Below are positions 4,242-44,341 of a DNA stretch of 44,463 bases, one piece after another; position 1 is the stretch's first letter; each line of letters begins with the position of its first letter. A model generated the notes under the pieces. That model saw nothing but the letters and a program-made list of their open reading frames with translations, had not been told where the DNA came from and did no database searches. Origin of the DNA: Candidatus Dadabacteria bacterium (GTDB taxonomy: Bacteria > Desulfobacterota_D > UBA1144 > Nemesobacterales > Nemesobacteraceae); assembly GCA_022819805.1 (NCBI GenBank), contig JAJEGO010000037.1, positions 1-44,463 on the forward strand, in the 5' to 3' direction. The position numbers were made by a program, and so were the translations under genes.

Positions 4242-5472
4242 CGGTTTTTCCAAGATTAAAAGCGTCGTGAAGAGTCCTCACGGCGGTTTCCGTGTCTTTT
4301 TCCTCAAGCACGCAAGAGATTTTTATTTCCGAAGTGCTTATCATCATAATGTTAATCCCCTCGTTTGCAAGCGTCCGGAACATGCGTGACGCCACTCCCG
4401 AGTGAGTCTTCATCCCCACGCCCACCAAGGAGACTTTGGATATAAGGTTGTCAGAGAGAACCTGGTTCGCCCCCAGCTCCCGGGCCATTTTCTCCGAGAG
4501 TTCTATCGATTTCTTGAAATCCGACTTGGGAACCGTGAACGTAAGGTCGGTAAACCCCTCCGTGCTCACGTTCTGAACGATCATGTCGACCACTATGTTC
4601 TCGTCCGCAAGCGACGAGAAAAGCTTCGCCGCTATGCCGGGCTGGTCGGGCACCTGAGTCACGGTGATTTTCGCCTGGTCCCTGTCATAGCTGACTCCCG
4701 ACACCAGAACTTCTTCCATGGATTTCATAACTTTTTCCTCGTCCACAACCCAGGTCCCTTCCTCCCCGGGCCTTGGAGTTGACTTAACATGTATAGGCAC
4801 TTTAAATTTTTTTGCAAATTCAACCGCGCGGGCCTGCAGCACTTTTGATCCCAAGGAGGCCATCTCGAGCATCTCGTCATAGGAAACCCGGCTGAGCTTT
4901 CTTGCGTCGGGACAGATTCCCGGGTCCGTGGTGTAGACCCCGTCAACGTCGTCCTTGTAGAGTTCGCACGAATCGGCGCCCATTACGGCCGCAAGTGCCA
5001 CCGCAGTGAGGTCTGAGCCTCCCCGCCCGAGCGTTGTAAGGTTCCCGTCCTCGTCAACTCCCTGGAATCCCGCTATCACAACCGCCTTTTTTTCCCCGAG
5101 AGCGAGTCGGACGTTACTGTCGTCGATCGATTTTATCTTGGCCTTGGAGTAAATGTTGTCCGTGGTGATCCTTATCTGGTGTCCCTGGAACGATATCGCG
5201 TCCTCACCGAGCGATTTTATCGTCATCGCCAGAAGGCCGGAGGAGACCTGCTCCCCGCTTGAGGTTATCACGTCAAACTCCCTCTCGTCAGGGGGATCCA
5301 TCACCTCTTTTGCGAGGCCGACCAGCCTGTCGGTTTCACCTGCCATAGCGGAAACCACGGCTATCACGTCGTTTTTCTGCTTCTTCGTAGCTACTATGTG
5401 CTCGGCGACGCGTCTTATCTTCTCGATGCTTGCAACGCTTGTTCCGCCGTATTTCTGAACGACAAGAGCCAT
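4234..5472 (-). CDS. lysC: Aspartate kinase
   Basis: Aspartate kinase phosphorylates L-aspartate with ATP at the head of lysine, threonine and methionine synthesis. The 412-residue protein starts with the signature VQKYGGTSV, continues with GRGGSDLTAVALA and YKDDVDGVYTTDP (substrate and nucleotide sites), and ends in two ACT domains (about 265-405) that would give feedback control by lysine and/or threonine. It is a single-function enzyme with no homoserine dehydrogenase fused. Its first 58 bases overlap the end of tsaE and its end overlaps the start of cimA, so tsaE, lysC and cimA are probably translated from one leftward message. dapB of the same pathway lies about 28 kb away at 33126-33926. 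Confidence 0.95.
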   Translation of the reverse strand: MALVVQKYGGTSVASIEKIRRVAEHIVATKKQKNDVIAVVSAMAGETDRLVGLAKEVMDPPDEREFDVITSSGEQVSSGLLAMTIKSLGEDAISFQGHQIRITTDNIYSKAKIKSIDDSNVRLALGEKKAVVIAGFQGVDEDGNLTTLGRGGSDLTAVALAAVMGADSCELYKDDVDGVYTTDPGICPDARKLSRVSYDEMLEMASLGSKVLQARAVEFAKKFKVPIHVKSTPRPGEEGTWVVDEEKVMKSMEEVLVSGVSYDRDQAKITVTQVPDQPGIAAKLFSSLADENIVVDMIVQNVSTEGFTDLTFTVPKSDFKKSIELSEKMARELGANQVLSDNLISKVSLVGVGMKTHSGVASRMFRTLANEGINIMMISTSEIKISCVLEEKDTETAVRTLHDAFNLGKTDE

Positions 5473-13052: not shown

Positions 13053-16000
<2,948 letters not shown>

Positions 16001-16064
16001 GAGGCTTGAAAATTCTCGATACCAACACAACACACAATTTTCTCAGCGTTATATTCAGTTGCCA

Positions 16065-16222
16065 AAGATTTTTCCGATTTGATTTAAGGTTGCCTTTTAG
16101 ATTAGAATTCTTCATAAAGTTCTTGACATGTTAGAATTTGTTGTGGTAGTTTATAAGCGAGTTTTAAATGTTTTTTAACTGAAATTATAATACGTTAAAA
16201 CCCCTAACCATAATCCACATGT
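16065..16222. other. AT-rich stretch without a gene
   Basis: No coding sequence and no 5S rRNA are visible. A TTGACA at 16123-16128 has no -10 box at the right distance. The first 45 bases show weak similarity to 20010-20055, the flank of copy C, as a faded extension of the repeat. Confidence 0.5.
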
Positions 16223-16257
16223 AAAAAAGCCCAGATCCGATTTCTCAGACCTGGGCT
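16223..16257 (-). terminator. Intrinsic terminator of the RTX lipoprotein gene
   Basis: On the minus strand AGCCCAG pairs with CTGGGCT, extended by about three inner pairs, and is followed by TTTTTT (complement of 16223-16228). It lies about 95 bases after the stop codon of the RTX gene. Confidence 0.8.
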
Positions 16258-16352
16258 GCAAGAGGAGATTAAATGTCTACTAGTTAGCGATGATGTTAGT
16301 TTCCTTACTCAAGGGAAACAACTCTAGAGGCAAATGAATCTCTCCTTAGGTT

Positions 16353-17840
16353 TTATTCAAATATCAAGAAAACCGAACCCTCTCCATCTCTTCCTATGAT
16401 GGCCTGGATGGTGGTGCCCAGGTTATAAGGGGCGTCGGTTCCTAAAATAACTGTCTGGCTAACTCCGCCCGTCGTAATCGTAAATATTCCGTCCGTCTGG
16501 ATAGGGTCCGAAGCTTTCGGCGTCCCCTCGGTGTTAGGCAACTGCTTGACGACGATTTTGTCAATTACGCCTGTCTGCCCTGCGGCCGGCAACTGAAAAT
16601 CTAAAATGGTATCCGTTGCGCCAGCCCTGGGAACCCAGACAACAAAGGTATCTTTCCCGGTAACATCATTGCCATCATCGGGGGGATCTCCAAAAAGGGT
16701 GTTGTTGCCTGCCTTGCCGTCAAGCTCATTGTCCGCGTCATCTCCCGTCAGGGCGTCGTTATCGGCACCTCCATGAACATTTTCAAAACCTTTGACTCCT
16801 GGAGCAGTGGAAAGAACAAAGGTTCCAGACACAACAATGGTGTCAGTACCCATACCGCCGTCAAGCGTGTCAGTCCCTCCGCCGCCAGTAATAACGTCAT
16901 CTCCGCCCATACCGTTAATGGTGTCGTTGCGAGAACCGCCTGTAAGCGTGTTGGCGTTGTCATCGCCCACCAGTTGGTTAGGGCCAGTTGCACTGCCCGT
17001 GACATTTTCAACGTTGGAAATCACGTCCTTGATATCTCCTACCTCCATCAAGGCACCTGCCGGCCGGACTTCCGAGAAACCATTATCTCCCCCCATAAGC
17101 CCAACATGAAGAACATTACCAGCACCATCTGCTTCTCCCAGTTGACCAGCGTCGGTGCCAGGCGCGATGGCAGCGAAACTTACGGTATCTACACCGTCAC
17201 CGCCGTCAAGAACATCTATGCCTACCAGATCGCTGTCAGTAAGAGTATCGTTTCCAGCTTCGCCATAGAGCTCATCGTTTCCAGCCCCACCGTCGAGATC
17301 GTCGTTGCCTTCTCCACCATAGAGCATGTCATCGCCCCCGTTACCCCTAAGAGTATCGTTTCCAGCATCGCCCCTGAGCACGTCATCCCCCGCGTCGTTA
17401 TAATTGTCCGGTGGGGTCGCCGGGCGCGCTTCGTGACCATACAAATTGTCATCGCCCAGTCCTCCCTCGAGGGTATCGTTGCCAGCCTCTCCGTTAATGG
17501 TGTCCTTGCCCCCGTTACCGAGTAGCGTATCATCTCCATCCGCACCGCTGATGGAATCAGGATAGTTGCTTCCACAAACCATATCGGCTCCATCGGAACC
17601 CACGAACACCCTGTCTCTGAGGGTCAACTGATGGTCGCACTCCGGCATTTCCGGAGGTGCCGGACACATTGCGGGGTCGCTAACTTCAGTTGCTTCCTCG
17701 TCGGAACACACATACACCGTAGGTCTAGGCACGTTCTTTTCCACCTCTACCTCCACGGTTTCCGTATCTGTGCAAGATATGCTTAGAACCCCTGCTGCCG
17801 TGCACAGCAACAGAATCATAAACAAGTTACGTAACTTCAT
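16353..17840 (-). CDS. RTX calcium-binding repeat lipoprotein
   Basis: The 495-residue protein begins with a signal peptide whose cleavage region VLSISC (Cys23) is loosely lipobox-like, though the residue at -3 is Ser rather than Leu. From about residue 80 it carries many RTX nonapeptide units of the form GGxGxDxLx (for example GGEGNDDLD, GEAGNDTLT, GGGGTDTLD) in two blocks, about 85-220 and 290-390, which fold into a calcium-loaded parallel beta-roll in known family members. The last 100 residues contain no enzyme motif. No type I secretion genes lie nearby. AAGGAGG lies 8 bases before the ATG and a terminator follows. It is probably a surface or periplasmic calcium-binding structural or adhesion protein. 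It sits between two copies of the 23S tail, and so may be mobile cargo. Confidence 0.85.
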   Translation of the reverse strand: MKLRNLFMILLLCTAAGVLSISCTDTETVEVEVEKNVPRPTVYVCSDEEATEVSDPAMCPAPPEMPECDHQLTLRDRVFVGSDGADMVCGSNYPDSISGADGDDTLLGNGGKDTINGEAGNDTLEGGLGDDNLYGHEARPATPPDNYNDAGDDVLRGDAGNDTLRGNGGDDMLYGGEGNDDLDGGAGNDELYGEAGNDTLTDSDLVGIDVLDGGDGVDTVSFAAIAPGTDAGQLGEADGAGNVLHVGLMGGDNGFSEVRPAGALMEVGDIKDVISNVENVTGSATGPNQLVGDDNANTLTGGSRNDTINGMGGDDVITGGGGTDTLDGGMGTDTIVVSGTFVLSTAPGVKGFENVHGGADNDALTGDDADNELDGKAGNNTLFGDPPDDGNDVTGKDTFVVWVPRAGATDTILDFQLPAAGQTGVIDKIVVKQLPNTEGTPKASDPIQTDGIFTITTGGVSQTVILGTDAPYNLGTTIQAIIGRDGEGSVFLIFE

Positions 17841-18183: not shown

Positions 18184-19176
18184 TCATCCGCAACCGTAGC
18201 GAATACGAGCGACGGCGTTACTCCCCGCAAGCTGATGCCTGGAGTAGAGGGCGGGCATTTGCGGTGACTGCCAGCGGCCTGCGATCTGCATATCGACGAG
18301 AGTTGCCCCGCTGGCGGCCATACTCTGCGCCGCCCCGACGCGCAGGGAATGACCGCTTACTCCCTCTATTCCTGCCTGTGCGGCCTGAGCTTTGAGAATG
18401 CGGCGTATGGACAAAGGGGATAAAGCTGTTTCACCGACTCGGGAAGTATGAATCTTTCCGCGTGATACTCTGCGAAAAAGCGCCCCGTTATCCACTCTTC
18501 CCGCTTCCCGCCACGCGCGAACCCGCACCATCGTCGGGCGGCCAAGATAAAGAACCGCTCCCCTGCCTTCCTGATCCGTCTTTGAGCGCCTGACACTCAG
18601 CCGCCCGGAACCGTCGGTTTCTTCCGTGACATCTGAGACAAGCAGCGCTGCCGCTTCGGAAATTCTCAGCATTGCGTCGGACATGACCGAGATCAAGGCT
18701 GCGTCACGGATGCCTGAAAGCGAATCCGGATCTTCGCTCGCCTTAGCTGCCATTGTATCAGCCTGTGTCCAGCTGACGCCGCGGGCCTGGCCGCGTCCCC
18801 GGTTTGCTCCCTTGCGGCGAAATCCCCGCATTGTCGCTACCGTAAGCCTGTTAACCGGGGACTTTGTGTCTCTGAGTTTCACGGCGTAGGAAACCGCCGC
18901 TATAGCCATTTGAGCCGTGGCGGGGGCCTTGCCCTCGGCTTCGAGTGTAGCGATGTAGCGGGCAAGAGCAACATCATTGAGCTTTTCAAGCAGCAGACCG
19001 ACATTGACTTCTTCTCCAGATTCAATCCCCATAAACGCTTCAAGACGACGCAGTGCCCCGCGGTAGGTCTTAAGGGTGTTTTCTGACACGGATTCGCTTA
19101 TAAGCTCTCTGAGATTCGCTTCCTCTTCTAGCAATTCCATGGAATGTGATTTCTCAAGTGTATTTTGCTCTCCCAT
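18184..19176 (-). CDS. Cre-like tyrosine recombinase
   Basis: The 330-residue protein has an N-terminal SAM-like core-binding domain (about 25-115) and a C-terminal catalytic domain. The catalytic residues are R171 (in LRISEAA), K199 (RSKTD), H276 and R279 (GHSLRVGAAQ), W302 (AGRWQ) and the nucleophile Y311 (ALYSRH). The spacing R279-W302-Y311 (23 and 9) and the use of Trp where most family members have His match phage P1 Cre (R292, W315, Y324) rather than XerC/XerD. AGGAGG lies about 8 bases before the ATG. It would cut and rejoin DNA at a specific site through a 3'-phosphotyrosine link. Copies of the 23S tail lie on both sides (15927 and 19871) and a decayed one directly upstream (19313), which makes them candidates for past recombination sites. 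Confidence 0.9.
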   Translation of the reverse strand: MGEQNTLEKSHSMELLEEEANLRELISESVSENTLKTYRGALRRLEAFMGIESGEEVNVGLLLEKLNDVALARYIATLEAEGKAPATAQMAIAAVSYAVKLRDTKSPVNRLTVATMRGFRRKGANRGRGQARGVSWTQADTMAAKASEDPDSLSGIRDAALISVMSDAMLRISEAAALLVSDVTEETDGSGRLSVRRSKTDQEGRGAVLYLGRPTMVRVRAWREAGRVDNGALFRRVSRGKIHTSRVGETALSPLSIRRILKAQAAQAGIEGVSGHSLRVGAAQSMAASGATLVDMQIAGRWQSPQMPALYSRHQLAGSNAVARIRYGCG

Positions 19177-19312
19177 AATAAATCCTCCTGCGATTTTTTA
19201 GGGAAATGCTTAATGTTTTTTCTCAATAGGAACAACAGGTTGGGGCCAGATAATGCGTAAGCGGCAGGGAGCACAGCATGCGAAGCAAGTCTGGAAAGTA
19301 AGGTTCCGTAAG

Positions 19313-19411
19313 GATTACGAGGTTGACAGGTTCGGGACCTAAGTTTTGCGGGGGGTTAAGTTGGCGGGTGTTAATCGACCGTGAAACTTGTCTTGAGGAT
19401 TGGAGGTTCTC
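19313..19411 (+). repeat. 23S-tail repeat, copy B (diverged)
   Basis: These 99 bases align without a gap to 15919-16017 (end of the 23S and start of the spacer): 69 positions agree and 30 differ, of which 27 are transitions. Identical runs include GATTACGAGGTTGA and CGACCGTGA. Fainter 23S similarity extends left to about 19272. It is not a functional rRNA end, since no upstream 23S is attached. It lies between the recombinase start and its putative promoter. Confidence 0.8.
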
Positions 19412-19462
19412 AACGACGGTCAGCGTTTGGTCGTTCGCCTGTGAAAATCAAGGTGATTAGCC

Positions 19463-19652
19463 CTCTACAACTAGCCACTTGCCCCATCATATTGTTAAGA
19501 AATTATTCTTTTAAGTTGAAGTTATCGTAACCACCGCAGGCTGTGAAAACTGCGTAGAACCTAATATTAATTCTACCCCTCAGCTTAACTGCTTGTCAAG
19601 TAAAAATTAAGTTATTTCAGGGTGATACAGAGCATTCGGTCCTAACAATCCC
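19463..19652 (-). repeat. Dispersed intergenic repeat, copy 1
   Basis: About 190 bases are similar to 41364-41563. Shared blocks (plus strand) are AACTAGCCACTTGC, GAATTATTCTTT (one mismatch here), CGCAGGCTGTGAAA, CTTAACTG, TTGTCAAGTAAA, GAGTTATTT-type and CGGTCCTAACA-type sequence, separated by less conserved bases. Most differences are transitions. On the minus strand it carries a promoter (19570-19599) followed by a short hairpin (CGCAG/CTGCG) and reads toward the recombinase. Confidence 0.8.
19570..19599 (-). promoter_or_regulatory. Putative promoter of the recombinase gene, inside the repeat
   Basis: On the minus strand TTGACA (complement of 19594-19599) and TAGAAT (complement of 19570-19575) are 18 bases apart. 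The second repeat copy keeps the same boxes and the same spacing at 41483-41512. The leader to the recombinase ATG would be about 390 bases and include copy B of the 23S tail. Confidence 0.6.
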
Positions 19653-19657
19653 GCGCT

Positions 19658-19679
19658 GTTCCACTCGGGTGAGTGGAAC
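19658..19679. repeat. Perfect 9-bp hairpin
   Basis: GTTCCACTC (19658-19666) and GAGTGGAAC (19671-19679) are perfectly complementary around the loop GGGT. There is only a TTT after it, so a terminator role is weak; a protein-binding palindrome is also possible. It marks the outer end of dispersed repeat copy 1. Confidence 0.6.
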
Positions 19680-19698
19680 TTTCAAACCTCCCCAACAT

Positions 19699-19717
19699 CA
19701 ATTCAGCTGATGAATTG
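19699..19717. repeat. Perfect 7-bp hairpin
   Basis: CAATTCA (19699-19705) and TGAATTG (19711-19717) pair around GCTGA, 20 bases from the previous hairpin. The remaining bases up to 19870 hold no gene or other structure that I can support. Confidence 0.45.
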
Positions 19718-19870
19718 CCTGGATAAGATGGCTCTTGGAAACTACACTGAGGGTTCAAAGAGGCGATCCGGGGTTTGGAGGGCTTGTAAGCTTAAGTCTG
19801 TAACCCCATCACCTTTCTAAAAGCGTGAATAAAGCGAAAAAATAAAAAATCGAGTTGACTTAAATTCATG

Positions 19871-20009
19871 GGTTGATAGGCTCAGGGTGTAAGTCCCGTG
19901 AGGGATTAATCTGATGAGTGCTAACCGACCGTGAGGATTACCGCGGCGCTTGAAAATTCTCGATACCAATACAACACACAATTTTGCTCAGCGTTATATT
20001 CAGTTGCCA
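19871..20009 (+). repeat. 23S-tail repeat, copy C
   Basis: This is a near-exact copy of 15927-16064, the end of the 23S plus the 3' processing arm, with about 8 differences. Its left edge is sharp (the bases before 19871 do not match the 23S), while to the right the similarity fades over about 40 bases. It is not attached to any 23S body, so it is a partial duplication or an attachment-site copy. Confidence 0.88.
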
Positions 20010-20067
20010 GGGATCCTTCCCCAAGTTGAAGGCGACCTTTCATAAGCAAGCTTTCCCCGTGAGATAT

Positions 20068-20490
20068 TTATTGCGTTTCCCAGGGATTTGTGATCTTGAC
20101 GTCCAGTCCGGCAAAATCCCCGATGTTCCGCGTGGCTACAGAGAGATCATGCGTTTTTGCGGTTCCCGCAATCAGCGCGTCACCTATGTCTAGCACGTGA
20201 CCAGACTTTTTGGCTTGCGCCCTGAACCACGCTGCCCACTCCGCTTCTTTTTTTGCCAGCGGCAGAATACGGTCTTCGTATTCAGAGACGAACTCTGATA
20301 AGAGGCTATGCAAGTCGAAACGACGCTTTCCCTCTGGGAGGAGTTGCAGACCGAATTCAAGCTCATGCAGAACGATTGGCGACAGCCAGAGCTGTTTCTC
20401 CTGCGCTGATATGAATGCTGACACTCTCGGATCAGGGTACTTTCTGGTCAGTTCCGATATAACGTTGGTGTCCAGAATGTAACCGCTCAT
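20068..20490 (-). CDS. vapC: PIN-domain ribonuclease toxin (VapC/FitB type)
   Basis: The 140-residue protein is a full-length PIN domain. The acidic metal-binding residues are D7 (YILDTNVISEL), E43 (LHELEFG), D101 and D104 (VLDIGDALIAG) and D125 (RNIGDF). PIN toxins of this group cut tRNA or rRNA in a magnesium-dependent way when freed from the antitoxin. The ATG overlaps the antitoxin stop by 4 bases, the classical coupled arrangement. The gene ends 59 bases from copy C of the 23S tail, at the edge of the accessory island. Confidence 0.92.
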   Translation of the reverse strand: MSGYILDTNVISELTRKYPDPRVSAFISAQEKQLWLSPIVLHELEFGLQLLPEGKRRFDLHSLLSEFVSEYEDRILPLAKKEAEWAAWFRAQAKKSGHVLDIGDALIAGTAKTHDLSVATRNIGDFAGLDVKITNPWETQ

Positions 20491-20765
20491 TTCTCATCGT
20501 CCTCTATGAAGGGGATTTTGCGTTTGGACTTTCGGTTACGCGGGATTTCAAACTCCCCTGCCCGGGACATATTTTCAAGAAGCCACTGACCCATAGGCTT
20601 TTTAGGTGATTCCTTGATCTGCCACAAGTCGGAGGGTACAAGAATGAAGGATCTCCGTACTCCGATACGCTGAGGACCCTCTGTCTCGGCAAGCCTCAGT
20701 ATTTCGGAAAGCTTCGCTTTGGCCTCGGCTACAGTCCATACATGCTGGCTTTTGGAAGTGCTCAT
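20487..20765 (-). CDS. vapB: Antitoxin of the Phd/YefM type, partner of VapC
   Basis: The 92-residue protein has the Phd/YefM N-terminal DNA-binding fold, with VWTVAEAKAKLSEILRLAE at about residues 9-27, then strands around the segment FILVPSDLW. The basic and acidic C-terminal tail (residues 65-92) would wrap and inhibit the toxin. AAGGAG lies about 9 bases before the ATG. Antitoxins of this type bind their own promoter, and the tandem repeat at 20791-20810 is a good candidate operator. Confidence 0.88.
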   Translation of the reverse strand: MSTSKSQHVWTVAEAKAKLSEILRLAETEGPQRIGVRRSFILVPSDLWQIKESPKKPMGQWLLENMSRAGEFEIPRNRKSKRKIPFIEDDEK

Positions 20766-20861: not shown

Positions 20862-22343
20862 ATGAATATCCCCGACCTACTTACTCATTTGGGAGCGATG
20901 GCGATTGTTGCCCTCGCGCTATCCTACTATCTGACTAGGGAAAGGGGCCGGCGCGAGTCGGCTGAAACCAAGCTTTCCTTCATCAGCGATGAACTCGAAG
21001 AGACAAGAAGCAAAAGTGCTCAACTTGAAGAACAACTTAAAAACTCGGTTGATGTCGCAAACACCCTTAACGCCGAGAAAGCTTCCCTTCAGTCCAGCAT
21101 AAAAGAAAAGGAAACCGCCATTGCCGACCGTGATTCAAGGATTTCCGGGTTGGAAAGACAGGTTAGCGAACTCGTATCTGAGGTTGCCAGAAAGGAAAGC
21201 GTACTTTCAGGTCTCAGTGCGACCATGGAGCAGGAAAGAAAGGGTTTCGAGGAAAAACTGACCATCCTGGATGAAGCGAAAAAAAGACTGGGTGACGAGT
21301 TTGAAAACCTAGGAAACAGGATTTTCGAGGATACGACCAAGAAATTCACCGACAAGAACAAAACGGACATGGAGACCCTTCTTAATCCCCTGCGCGAGCA
21401 GATAAAGGATTTCGAGAAGAAAGTCACCGATACCCACACGGAGGCGAGCAAAGACAGAGCTTCTCTGCAAACCCACATAGAAAATCTCAAGAAACTGGGC
21501 GAGCAGATGAGCCAGGAAGCCCTCAATCTCACCACGGCCCTCAAGGGAGAATCACAGACCCAGGGCGCCTGGGGCGAAATAGTGCTAGAGAAGGCCCTTG
21601 AGATGTCGGGGCTTTCCGAGGGCAGGGAGTATCACTCCCAGTCAAGCTACAAGGGGGGTAACGGCAATACCCTCCGGCCCGACGTGATCGTTCACCTCCC
21701 CGAGGGAAAAGACGTCATAATCGACTCCAAGGTCTCCCTCACGGCTTACGAGAGATACGTCTCCTGCGAGGATGAGGAGGAGAGGGAGAATTACCTGAAA
21801 CAGCACGTTTCATCGTTTCGAAACCACATAAAGGAACTCAGCGACAAGAGATATGAGGACATTCCCGAAATAACGAGCCTTAACTACGTTTTGATGTTCG
21901 TTCCGCTCGAGTCGGCTTTTATGGTGGCCATAGAGACGGAGAGGGGTCTTTACTCAGAGGCTTTTGAGAAAAACGTGATAATCGTCTGTCCATCGACCCT
22001 TCTCGCGACGCTGAGAACCATACACAGCATCTGGCAGTTTGAAGACCAGAACTCAAATGCCAGGGAGATAGCCGAAAGCGCCGGGAGGATGTACGACAAG
22101 TTCGCGACTTTCGTTGAGCATCTCGAGGAAGTCGGAAAGCGTATAGAACAGTCCAACAAAGCTTATCAGAGCGCGATGGGCAGCCTTTCCGAAGGCAAGG
22201 GCAATCTCGTGAAAAGAGCTTCAGATCTCAAGGAGTTGGGGGTAAAAGCTTCTAAGGAGCTTCCCCGGGACCTAGTGGAAAAATCCCGACTCTCCGGGCA
22301 CGCAGTTTCCTCCGGCAAGGAGGCGGATAACGGGTCGCAGTGA
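20862..22343 (+). CDS. rmuC: DNA recombination protein RmuC
   Basis: RmuC proteins limit DNA rearrangements at inverted repeats and are predicted nucleases anchored in the membrane. The 493-residue protein has a membrane segment at about residues 8-24, a long coiled coil at about 30-135 with further helices to 230, and the conserved RmuC domain at about 235-430 (GAWGEIVLEKALE, RPDVIVHLPEGKDVIIDSK, FVPLESAF). The C-terminal tail is variable as in the family. The ATG at 20862 gives the expected N-terminal anchor, although no ribosome binding site is visible. It is divergent from vapBC and followed by the reductase gene 76 bases later. Confidence 0.93.
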   Translation: MNIPDLLTHLGAMAIVALALSYYLTRERGRRESAETKLSFISDELEETRSKSAQLEEQLKNSVDVANTLNAEKASLQSSIKEKETAIADRDSRISGLERQVSELVSEVARKESVLSGLSATMEQERKGFEEKLTILDEAKKRLGDEFENLGNRIFEDTTKKFTDKNKTDMETLLNPLREQIKDFEKKVTDTHTEASKDRASLQTHIENLKKLGEQMSQEALNLTTALKGESQTQGAWGEIVLEKALEMSGLSEGREYHSQSSYKGGNGNTLRPDVIVHLPEGKDVIIDSKVSLTAYERYVSCEDEEERENYLKQHVSSFRNHIKELSDKRYEDIPEITSLNYVLMFVPLESAFMVAIETERGLYSEAFEKNVIIVCPSTLLATLRTIHSIWQFEDQNSNAREIAESAGRMYDKFATFVEHLEEVGKRIEQSNKAYQSAMGSLSEGKGNLVKRASDLKELGVKASKELPRDLVEKSRLSGHAVSSGKEADNGSQ

Positions 22344-28687: not shown

Positions 28688-28882
28688 AGTCTTTTGCTCT
28701 TGGCTTGCAAAGATGGAGAAGGACATTTTACAGTCCTGAAACATCTTTTCTGGAAGAGCACTACCGCCTGGTTCGGGGCGATGAGTTATAAGCGGTTTTC
28801 AGTGAAAGACTTATCGCTCCTTCTAGGACTTGCTGTTTCGTATCATGCTGAAATCACTTGTAAATTGTTATAATGCCCGTTC

Positions 28883-29503
28883 ATGGACAATCCGCCGCAC
28901 AGAACGGGCAGAATGATAAAAATATATAAAATCAGCTTCCCCGATGGATCGGCTTACGTCGGGCAGACAAGACAGCCGGTTTCCGCCCGGCTCGCGCAGC
29001 ATCGGCGCTCAAGCCCGTGCAATTCAATTCTGCACCGCAGGCTTCTTATAATGAAGCCGACCATAGAAGTCCTCTCTAGCCACCGCAACCAGGAGATTGC
29101 CGACCGGGAAGAGAAAAAGTGGATCATGGGGCTTGAAAAACCGATAAACATGTATGTCGACGGGAAGCAGATCAACACAAACCCCCAAGCCCCGTCACTG
29201 CGTGACAACAGGTGGCCGAAGGAAAGAAACCGGCGGAAAAGACCCAAGTATCCCCGCAGGGCCAGCGGCTATCACGTCTGTTCCTGGTGCTGGCGGAAAC
29301 TTCCAGTGTCTGAGTTCTATTCAGACTGCTGCAGGTCGGTCGGCCTTTCAAGCCGATGCAAGAGATGTTCCGGGATCGAGAGCAGGGCCCGCCGGGAGGC
29401 GATAAAAAGGAATGGGGATACTTCCGTAGCCTATTTCCAGGCTAAACTTGCGTGTCAGGCGCTGCGGACGACGAGAACCCGGCCGGTGATCAGAGTCGTA
29501 TGA
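28883..29503 (+). CDS. GIY-YIG endonuclease-domain protein with a cysteine cluster
   Basis: The 206-residue protein begins with a GIY-YIG nuclease domain (about 12-95): KIYKIS (Y15), AYVGQT (Y25, G27), the catalytic-type arginine R36 in ARLAQH and a helix with acidic residues. After a basic linker there is a C-terminal cluster CSWCWRKLPVSEFY...C...CKRC, a pattern seen in small zinc-binding modules that often accompany HNH or phage-related nucleases. The first ATG (28883) lies 8 bases after a TATAAT (28869-28874) without a Shine-Dalgarno; the ATG at 28913 is an alternative and keeps the whole domain. It is a single gene between sucD and yicC and is probably of mobile or phage origin. Confidence 0.8.
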   Translation: MDNPPHRTGRMIKIYKISFPDGSAYVGQTRQPVSARLAQHRRSSPCNSILHRRLLIMKPTIEVLSSHRNQEIADREEKKWIMGLEKPINMYVDGKQINTNPQAPSLRDNRWPKERNRRKRPKYPRRASGYHVCSWCWRKLPVSEFYSDCCRSVGLSSRCKRCSGIESRARREAIKRNGDTSVAYFQAKLACQALRTTRTRPVIRVV

Positions 29504-39862: not shown

Positions 39863-41344
39863 TCAGTCAGTTCGGGGCAGGCTTTCCGTCCCGAATCTCG
39901 AGATGGTTTCCAATGTCTCGCGTACGTCGTTCCAGGTCGTTGTGTGGTTAATGACACACATTCTGAGCGCAAACGTCCCGTTAAGAAGTGTCGATGATAT
40001 GAAAGCACGGTCTTCCCAGAATACACGGGCGAGTACAGTCCTGTTGATTTCTTCCAACACGTCCTCGCCAAGGTCGGTGCTTGCGGGGTTGACTCGGAAG
40101 CATGCGATCCCCAATGTCGGGGGAGTCAGCATCTCCAGAACGGGACTGCCCTTGATGTACTCCTCAATCCGGTGCGCAAGCGCCATCCCATTCGATACGG
40201 CTCGCCGGAACGCGGCCATTCCGAAGGTCTGAACCGACATCCAGATCTTAAGCGCCCGAACGGAGCGGCTGAGTTGAAGGCCTCTGTCCGAAAAATTCGG
40301 ATGGTCAGCGCCCCAGATCGTGTCCTGGAGAATATCGTGCTTGACGGCGAACGCCCGCTCGAGCGTGCGTACATCCTTCACCATCAGGCCGCCCACCTCA
40401 TAGGGCTGGAAGAACCACTTGTGCGCGTCCAGGCTTATTGAATCTGCGCGCTCTATTCCGCGCAAGAGCCTCTTGCCTTCCTCGGTCACGATTGCGAAGC
40501 CTCCATGCGCGGCGTCGACGTGAAGCCATATATCTTGGGCCTCGCAATAGTCCGCCATCGCTTCCAGAGGGTCGACAGCTCCGCTGCTGGACGTTCCGGC
40601 GTTCGCGCACACTGCGATGGGACTGAGTCCGGCGGCCCGGTCCTCGGCCACGGTCTCGGCAAGCGCATCCATGTCCATACGGAAATCCCCATCGGTCGGA
40701 ATCATGCGGATGCATTCTGGACGGACGCCTACAATTCTGGCCGCGCGGACAAGCGCGCTGTGGCTCTGGTTGCTCATGTACACGCTGGCACGTTCCGGGT
40801 GGTTTGCTGCCTCTCTCGCTGTGACTAAGGCGTCAAGGCTCGCCGCCGAGCCTCCGCTTGTCAACAGTCCGCCCGCACTCTCCGGATAGCCAAGCCAGCG
40901 CCGAAACCAGTCGATCACGACGAGCTCGAGCTGGCTCGGACCGCTTGAAGTCAGCCAGGAGCACTGGTTGATGTTAAATCCGGCAACCATGAAGTCGGCC
41001 AGCACTCCGGGCCAGGTGGGCTGCGAAGGGATGAATCCGAAGCAACGCGGGTGGTCCAGGCGCATTGCGATTGGGAGGATCTCGTGCGCGGCCTGTTCAA
41101 TCACTTGCGAGGCCGGCTGGCCGTCCTCGGGTGGATCTTTCAGCAGTTGATCCTCGAGTTCTCGTCGGAACTCTCCCTCCCAGGCACCTTCTTCGGGCAA
41201 GTTCTCAATGCGCTGCACCAGGAGTTCGGCCGTTCGGCGTGCAAGTTCCAGCATCTGTTCCGGTGCCATACGGAGGTCATCACCCATTCCATCATCATTT
41301 CCTGTTGCTGAGTCTGTCGGATGTCCTGGTTTCTTTACCCGCAT
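39863..41344 (-). CDS. PLP-dependent amino-acid decarboxylase (group II, aromatic type)
   Basis: This 493-residue protein belongs to the pyridoxal-phosphate decarboxylase family that includes aromatic-L-amino-acid, glutamate and tyrosine decarboxylases. Motifs are TSGGSAASLDAL, the substrate/PLP block WLHVDAAHGGFA, and SISLDAHKWFFQPYEVGGLMV with the PLP-binding lysine at residue 309. The N-terminal segment PEQMLELARRTAELLVQRIE and the DHPRCFGFIPSQPTWPGVLADFM block resemble the aromatic group more than the glutamate group. The substrate cannot be told by eye. It is a single gene between dcd and the dispersed repeat, whose promoter would drive it, and looks like an acquired accessory gene. ATG at 41344 is the first start and later ones (for example Met26) are possible. 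Confidence 0.88.
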   Translation of the reverse strand: MRVKKPGHPTDSATGNDDGMGDDLRMAPEQMLELARRTAELLVQRIENLPEEGAWEGEFRRELEDQLLKDPPEDGQPASQVIEQAAHEILPIAMRLDHPRCFGFIPSQPTWPGVLADFMVAGFNINQCSWLTSSGPSQLELVVIDWFRRWLGYPESAGGLLTSGGSAASLDALVTAREAANHPERASVYMSNQSHSALVRAARIVGVRPECIRMIPTDGDFRMDMDALAETVAEDRAAGLSPIAVCANAGTSSSGAVDPLEAMADYCEAQDIWLHVDAAHGGFAIVTEEGKRLLRGIERADSISLDAHKWFFQPYEVGGLMVKDVRTLERAFAVKHDILQDTIWGADHPNFSDRGLQLSRSVRALKIWMSVQTFGMAAFRRAVSNGMALAHRIEEYIKGSPVLEMLTPPTLGIACFRVNPASTDLGEDVLEEINRTVLARVFWEDRAFISSTLLNGTFALRMCVINHTTTWNDVRETLETISRFGTESLPRTD

Positions 41345-41363
41345 TTCTTATCAAAGGTAATTA

Positions 41364-41563
41364 CCCACTATAACTAGCCACTTGCTCCGCCATATTATTG
41401 GGGAATTATTCTTTCAGGTTGACATATTACCGGCGTCAACCGAACATCGCAGGCTGTGAAAGCTCCATACAGCCTAGCAGGGATTTTATTCTCCTGCTTA
41501 ACTGTTTGTCAAGTAAAGAGTGAGTTATTTTGGGTGATACGGAGCGTTTGGTCCTAACAGACC
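41364..41563 (-). repeat. Dispersed intergenic repeat, copy 2
   Basis: This is the second copy of the repeat at 19463-19652, in the same orientation. Conserved blocks are listed there. On the minus strand the sequence carries promoter boxes, a 7-bp hairpin (AGGCTGT/ACAGCCT) just after the predicted start, and a conserved segment with the core CAAGTGGCTAGTT, then reads into the decarboxylase gene about 20 bases further on. The hairpin is at the same place as in copy 1 but uses different bases. Confidence 0.8.
41483..41512 (-). promoter_or_regulatory. Putative promoter of the decarboxylase gene, inside the repeat
   Basis: On the minus strand TTGACA (complement of 41507-41512) and TAAAAT (complement of 41483-41488) are 18 bases apart, as in repeat copy 1. 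The leader to the ATG at 41344 would be about 130 bases. Confidence 0.6.

Positions 41564-44341
<2,778 letters not shown>

Follow-up and report, generated by a model that had tools for sequence, protein, structure and literature searches.

Correia elements of Neisseria are short, non-autonomous elements with terminal inverted repeats and strong sigma70-like promoters that often lie just upstream of genes, and sigma70-like promoter sequences have also been reported in the prokaryotic MITEs MITEAba12, BrickBuilt, QMITE1 and SonMITE_1 (both from excerpts of PMC10969869). Here we describe a repeat family of Candidatus Dadabacteria that is of the same kind as the Correia elements as those excerpts present them: short, non-autonomous, bounded by inverted repeats and bearing promoters near genes. 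Our literature search found no report on MITEs in Dadabacteria. We consider it very probable that the family is a non-autonomous MITE with an outward-facing promoter, that it spread within one Dadabacteria genus by means of a transposase encoded elsewhere, and that some of its insertions were kept for the use of that promoter.

By the window we mean the whole 44,463-nucleotide stretch of DNA analysed (contig JAJEGO010000037.1). An initial annotation had described in it two homologous stretches of about 190 bp. The homology is confirmed: searching within the own genome (1.57 Mb) gives 74% identity over about 190 bp and an E-value of 7e-27. The minus-strand promoter described at that time is present in both copies, with TTGACA and a spacer of 18 bases followed by TAGAAT in copy 1 and TAAAAT in copy 2. 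So is the shared core CAAGTGGCTAGTT, which belongs to the innermost portion of the element's right terminal repeat. The extent of about 190 bp is correct for the homologous block and too short for the copies themselves, which reach the borders given in Table 1.

Table 1. Positions in the window of the two MITE copies, their parts, the genes next to them and a stand-alone box
Feature	Positions	Strand	Evidence and remarks
MITE copy 1	19452..19807	-	without left end; profile positions 74-473; nhmmer E 2.9e-102; BLAST against relatives
Right terminal inverted repeat, copy 1	19452..19477	-	diverged; contains the core of the initial annotation; comparison with complete copies
-35 TTGACA, copy 1	19594..19599	-	sequence
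-10 TAGAAT, copy 1	19570..19575	-	spacer 18; sequence
Upstream 20-bp box, copy 1	19623..19642	-	15/20 against consensus; 23 bp before -35; sequence
MITE copy 2	41356..41577	-	without left half; profile positions 252-473; nhmmer E 7e-69
Right terminal inverted repeat, copy 2	41356..41380	-	1 inserted base; sequence and comparison with complete copies
-35 TTGACA, copy 2	41507..41512	-	sequence
-10 TAAAAT, copy 2	41483..41488	-	spacer 18; sequence
Upstream 20-bp box, copy 2	41535..41554	-	18/20; 22 bp before -35; sequence
Tyrosine recombinase gene, next downstream of copy 1	18184..19176	-	276 bp from element; Pfam Phage_integrase E 2.4e-11
PLP-dependent decarboxylase gene	39863..41344	-	ORF start 12 bp past copy 2; Pfam Pyridoxal_deC E 1.3e-64
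Diverged stand-alone box, not a MITE copy	28826..28845	+	before a presumably GIY-YIG-like gene at 28883; weak nhmmer E 0.004

The initial annotation had named a lack of further copies in the genome as grounds for rejecting it, but the two window copies are not alone there. The own genome (G000) holds five copies; beyond the window, two strong ones are found on C40 and C58 and a decayed one on C1, and relatives contain more. Among the 60 genomes searched, the element matches in 8 of the 13 genomes of the genus (own included) and in none of the 47 outside it. We count 22 distinct copies in these eight genomes (six in G001, five each in G000 and G003, two in G005 and one each in G002, G006, G007 and G010), some of them very partial, such as L042, where only the tail is found; L038 (G003) and L074 denote a single site, counted once, and the copies of the CATOTB record come on top. 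When the full-length query is used, 9 of the 13 genomes match, the ninth (G012) through a 32-bp inner match only, which was left uncounted.

Six complete copies define the borders of the element. They range from 430 to 516 bp (L043, 430 bp; L075, 441 bp; L073, 443 bp; L034, 467 bp; L031, 511 bp; L076 of record CATOTB010000001.1, 516 bp) and are bounded by 24-bp terminal inverted repeats, GGTAATTACCCCTATAACTAGCCA on the left and its reverse complement on the right, with 0-3 mismatches relative to the consensus. The copy L073, in a Candidatus Dadabacteria record, appeared in a scan of public genomes as two inverted matches, about 440 bp apart, to the block at the 3' border. The exact 21-base end of the terminal repeat had no match in viral contigs. 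In four of the six complete copies the flanking 8-bp target duplications match at seven or eight positions, with full agreement in L073 (TAAATTTA), L075 (AAATATAA) and L043 (ATTAAAAA) and seven of eight in L034. Both ends are present in L031 (3/8) and L076 (1/8), yet neither has a target duplication. The duplications are AT-rich.

The coding content of the element consists of a single reverse-strand ORF of about 50 amino acids, and there is no transposase gene. This ORF is open in some copies and carries stops or a deletion in others (win19, L035, L037, L029 and L059); its matches outside the genus are weak only (best E 0.0097), and we treat it as non-essential. The element combines terminal inverted repeats, target duplications, short length without a transposase and several dispersed copies, the features of a MITE, in line with the earlier guess of a miniature element. 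Many copies are truncated: 11 have lost the left end and kept the right, and one shows the converse. This bias may point to selection on the part that holds the promoter, although the left 73 profile positions are rich in indels and we do not rely on it.

Given that a tyrosine recombinase gene adjoins copy 1, the element might be conceived as a site moved by this enzyme, in the manner of an integron-like or phage-like cassette. We regard this as exceedingly unlikely. Recombinase and element are found together in G000 and G002 only, the fetched flanks of the recombinase in six further genomes contain no element, and elements occupy other sites in G001, G003, G005, G006, G007 and G010. Target duplications of 8 bp, moreover, do not fit site-specific recombination. 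Recombinase-mediated movement was rejected on account of these duplications and of the mostly separate places of recombinase and element.

The surroundings of copy 1 contain a duplication of the 3' end of the 23S rRNA gene together with its downstream tail (15927-16075 and 19871-20020, 92% over 150 bp, about 3.9 kb apart), and a weaker third piece of the 23S end lies at 19299-19384 (73% relative to 15905-15990). The recombinase, an RTX-like gene and MITE copy 1 are located between the duplicates, as might be expected of an integrative unit with the 23S end as its target; the arrangement is similar in L035 (G002) and partial in L037 (G001). No 5S rRNA match above the Rfam gathering score was found after the 23S gene (16000-16353) or elsewhere in the window. 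The adjacent region 20068-20765 contains a PIN-domain gene preceded by a partner with weak similarity to Phd/YefM; the two are likely a toxin-antitoxin pair.

The best candidate for the enzyme that moves the MITE, short of proof, is an IS1595-type transposase. Such transposases occur in 12 of the 13 genus genomes. One IS1595 of the own genome (L109, G000:C55) has perfect inverted ends and an 8-bp target duplication matching at 8/8. Its end is identical to that of the MITE in only 14 of 24 positions, an agreement that chance would produce with a probability of about 0.004, taking 0.3 per position. This copy resembles the MITE in the 8-bp duplication and in ends that start with GG. IS1595 elements differ in carrying the transposase and in the sequence of their ends, which are the same as those of the MITE in none of the 20 IS1595 loci checked for ends. 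IS256-type transposases are found in 2 of the 13 genomes, and in G006 their ends are unlike those of the MITE. No autonomous element sharing the ends of the MITE was found, which counts against the proposed origin.

Some further loci lie close to these elements in position or in structure. IS1595 transposase genes (L034:6628-7632 and L073:4962-5894) are located within about 84 and 388 bp, respectively, of complete MITE copies. A 940-bp relative with MITE-like ends and an 8/8 target duplication (L096:1501-2440, G005:C6) contains a 275-amino-acid ORF without Pfam match, which may be either a passenger gene or an unrecognised transposase. L095 (G010:C27) and L084 (G012:C102) are possible sister elements that share a GGAACTTATATACATAACTAGACA-like end and the inner block CTCTCCTTGGTGTT and have other contents.

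Near its right end the element carries a sigma70-like promoter sequence that points outward across the right terminal repeat. In an alignment of 10 copies counted by hand, 9 of the 12 hexamer positions are invariant, compared to 55 of the 162 others (Fisher p 0.006). The next gene is on the same strand at 17 of 20 sites versus 49% of 2,969 intergenic points drawn at random from these loci (p 0.001), a comparison based on crude ORF calls in which element copies and genes may in some cases have been duplicated jointly. Likewise, a gene starts within 150 bp at 14 of 20 sites versus 32% of the random points (p 0.0006). For the orientation test, 21 of 23 copies were evaluable, L073 and L041 being dropped for having no called downstream gene; the raw count of 18/21 became 17/20 once the orthologs win19 and L035 were merged, and the list was drawn up without L037, L060 and the second partial L076 copy (4308-4613). 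The decayed L102 copy and the copies L036 and L039 have their next called gene on the opposite strand, but the automatic call at L039 could be in error, as a short same-strand frame with a Shine-Dalgarno-like sequence begins closer to the element.

These figures bear on whether the promoter is of any use to the host. The repeat could be simply a MITE that inherited its promoter as a by-product and serves no gene with it, its proximity to genes reflecting AT-rich intergenic targets. We find this rather unlikely: the AT-rich target duplications would be expected under it, and some copies are indeed decayed or without a near same-strand gene (L036, L102), but the same-strand bias and the higher conservation of the hexamers relative to the remainder speak against it.

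The genes downstream of the element are diverse and include the PLP decarboxylase (in the window and in G003), a GDSL-lipase autotransporter (L026), a PhyH-type dioxygenase (L042) and, in six loci (L027, L028, L031, L034, L038 and L040), secreted Cache-like proteins. Only L027 reaches the Cache-domain Pfam model, and the other five were assigned through BLAST similarity to L027 and to one another. Just downstream of the element in L038, the Cache-like gene is a pseudogene with one TAG. Whether copy 1 drives the recombinase is doubtful because the gene is 276 bp away with a 23S rRNA remnant in between.

The recurrence of Cache-like genes raises another explanation, namely that the repeat is a conserved regulatory leader of this family that was copied with gene duplications instead of being transposed. 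Six of about 20 sites precede family members (p 1.5e-8, relative to 187 matches among genes whose number we ourselves estimate at 21,600; the matches overcount genes). Against such co-duplication, the proteins are 20-46% identical over long alignments while the DNA of the element is about 80% identical, and 23 of 30 fetched family loci have no strong element match. Other copies stand in front of unrelated genes, and the terminal repeats come with target duplications. We therefore consider a duplicated leader improbable and retain the MITE. The 30 loci were fetched out of the 187 matches and gave seven strong element matches (two of them to the same G006 element) and one weak box match. The family itself is large, with 8-25 matches in 12 of the 13 genus genomes and 3 in G004, 187 in total, and many of its proteins (e.g., L031, L034, L040 and L028) end in a GCAIA-type motif followed by a hydrophobic stretch and a basic tail, resembling a sorting signal. 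Six members of the family were scanned against NCBIfam and gave no match over the cut-off.

The region between promoter and right end was also proposed to form a hairpin at the same place in both copies from different bases, and hence to be selected for structure. The two window copies can indeed form such hairpins, which would suit a small RNA gene or a structured riboregulator leader, but the hairpin is not conserved among 10 copies and the argument for selection falls with the covariation, which stays within shuffled controls. In these 10 copies the stems GGCTGT/ACAGCC and CGCAG/CTGCG show no covariation beyond shuffles, the stem GGTTGAC/GTCAACC has one pair changed on both sides (shuffled mean 0.7), and RNAalifold gives a covariation term of -0.93, both partners differing in 1 of 32 pairs. 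For the element, neither the window nor two further loci gave an Rfam match above the gathering score; Rfam matches in the window are to rRNA and tRNA only. Taken together, these results leave the small RNA with very little probability.

The clearest case of probable promoter use by a gene comes from the decarboxylase. The initial annotation had regarded both neighbouring genes as unrelated accessory genes, which holds for the recombinase, patchy in its distribution (8/13). The decarboxylase is present in 11 of the 13 genus genomes with 81-91% identity to the window protein and is thus not accessory. Eight of its upstream regions (L173-L176, L178-L180 and L183) share a collinear sequence, and the seven that reach far enough contain a -10-like box; read by eye, it is TATAAT in six of them, whereas L174 has TATGAT. 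In G003 (L181), both flanks are collinear with L173 at 87-88%; between them about 126 bp including the TATAAT box are lost and about 180 bp are gained, holding the element promoter and leader (profile positions 271-435). Both terminal repeats are gone from this insertion, and the decarboxylase is intact, with a 528-amino-acid frame without stops. Read from these alignments, the predicted promoter half of the element has replaced a stretch common to other decarboxylase orthologs. That a gene with an intact frame has the element promoter in place of the common TATAAT stretch argues further against a promoter used by no gene.

The decarboxylase adjoins gyrB in the window and in G006, with the element in the window and none in G006. 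The element promoter thus precedes this gene in two genomes, each time at a different genomic site. In a tree built from 14 copies, 8 of 11 inner branches are left open and the two decarboxylase copies do not come together. This weakly suggests that they are separate events, a conclusion that rests mainly on the different genomic sites, with the tree adding weakly. Two suggestions of the initial annotation, a miniature element and a mobile promoter cassette, merge here into one, supported by the inverted ends, the target duplications, the dispersed copies and one clear promoter replacement, the promoter itself being predicted from sequence.

Upstream of the -35 lies a conserved 20-base box, GGACCAACCGTTCCGTATCA. 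Allowing up to three mismatches, it is found at 19 sites in the 13 genomes, whereas the reversed control gives 0. Five sites belong to MITE copies and 14 do not. Nine of the latter precede what we take, from translations read by eye, to be a tetR-like gene and overlap there the end of the upstream gene (in L193, L201 and L191 this placement is deduced from the upstream gene and the spacing, both of which match, the automatic ORF being different or missing); two stand before a presumed tetR paralog, outside any called coding frame; and one each is found at a presumably GIY-YIG-like gene, at a presumably transposase-like gene and apparently by chance. The stand-alone box of the window has TATAAT 23 bp on, and the ortholog of its gene in G003 (L187) also has a box.

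An exact TTGACA follows 12 of the 14 non-MITE boxes, at 23-24 bp in four and at 35-36 bp in eight, two distances about one DNA turn apart; for the tetR ortholog of G010 it is 24, versus 35-36 in its relatives. In all 18 MITE copies examined, a -35 matching at 5 or 6 of 6 positions lies 22-25 bp past the box. The box is probably a regulator site that the MITE carries, with the reservations that coding constraint could explain the conservation of nine sites, which are orthologous and not independent, and that the MITE copies descend from one source. Its presence in both MITE and host promoters suggests a mobile regulated promoter. We tentatively propose, as a possibility with the balance still against it, that the MITE carries the box of a host regulator in helical phase with the -35, so that insertions enrol genes into an existing, perhaps TetR-type, circuit and build up a regulon. 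If so, secreted Cache-like sensors, the decarboxylase, the GDSL autotransporter and others would have been joined to one control circuit by a transposon.

In the mechanism that we propose, the MITE would be spread by a transposase encoded elsewhere, for which the IS1595 type is the best candidate. Its predicted promoter consists of the 20-bp box, 22-25 bp, TTGACA, 18 bp, TAAAAT or TAGAAT and a leader of about 130-140 nt ending in the right terminal repeat. We infer that, from a copy landing with its right end toward a gene, transcription would pass through the right repeat and continue into the gene. Some insertions may then be kept since the gene adopts the element promoter, and the left part would decay. 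Since one genus offers pairs of the same gene with and without the element, it can be tested directly whether transposition brings about promoter turnover and the growth of regulons.

The Dadabacteria MITE differs from the Correia elements in its host, its ends and its 8-bp AT-rich duplication. Correia elements generate a TA target duplication; neither this nor Correia ends are found in the Dadabacteria copies, whose duplications are 8 bp long and of other sequence. MITEAba12, BrickBuilt, QMITE1 and SonMITE_1 are likewise promoter-bearing and can be compared by description only; in excerpts of PMC10969869 these descriptions mention no replacement of a native promoter and no box phased as in the host. 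Promoter-bearing MITEs are therefore known, and what sets this one apart is the host-type box in phase and the replacement of a conserved gene's upstream region. To our knowledge, cases are rare in which a comparison of close relatives shows one element family replacing the sequence upstream of a conserved gene, and in which this family carries a box that also occurs in host promoters, at spacings one turn apart.
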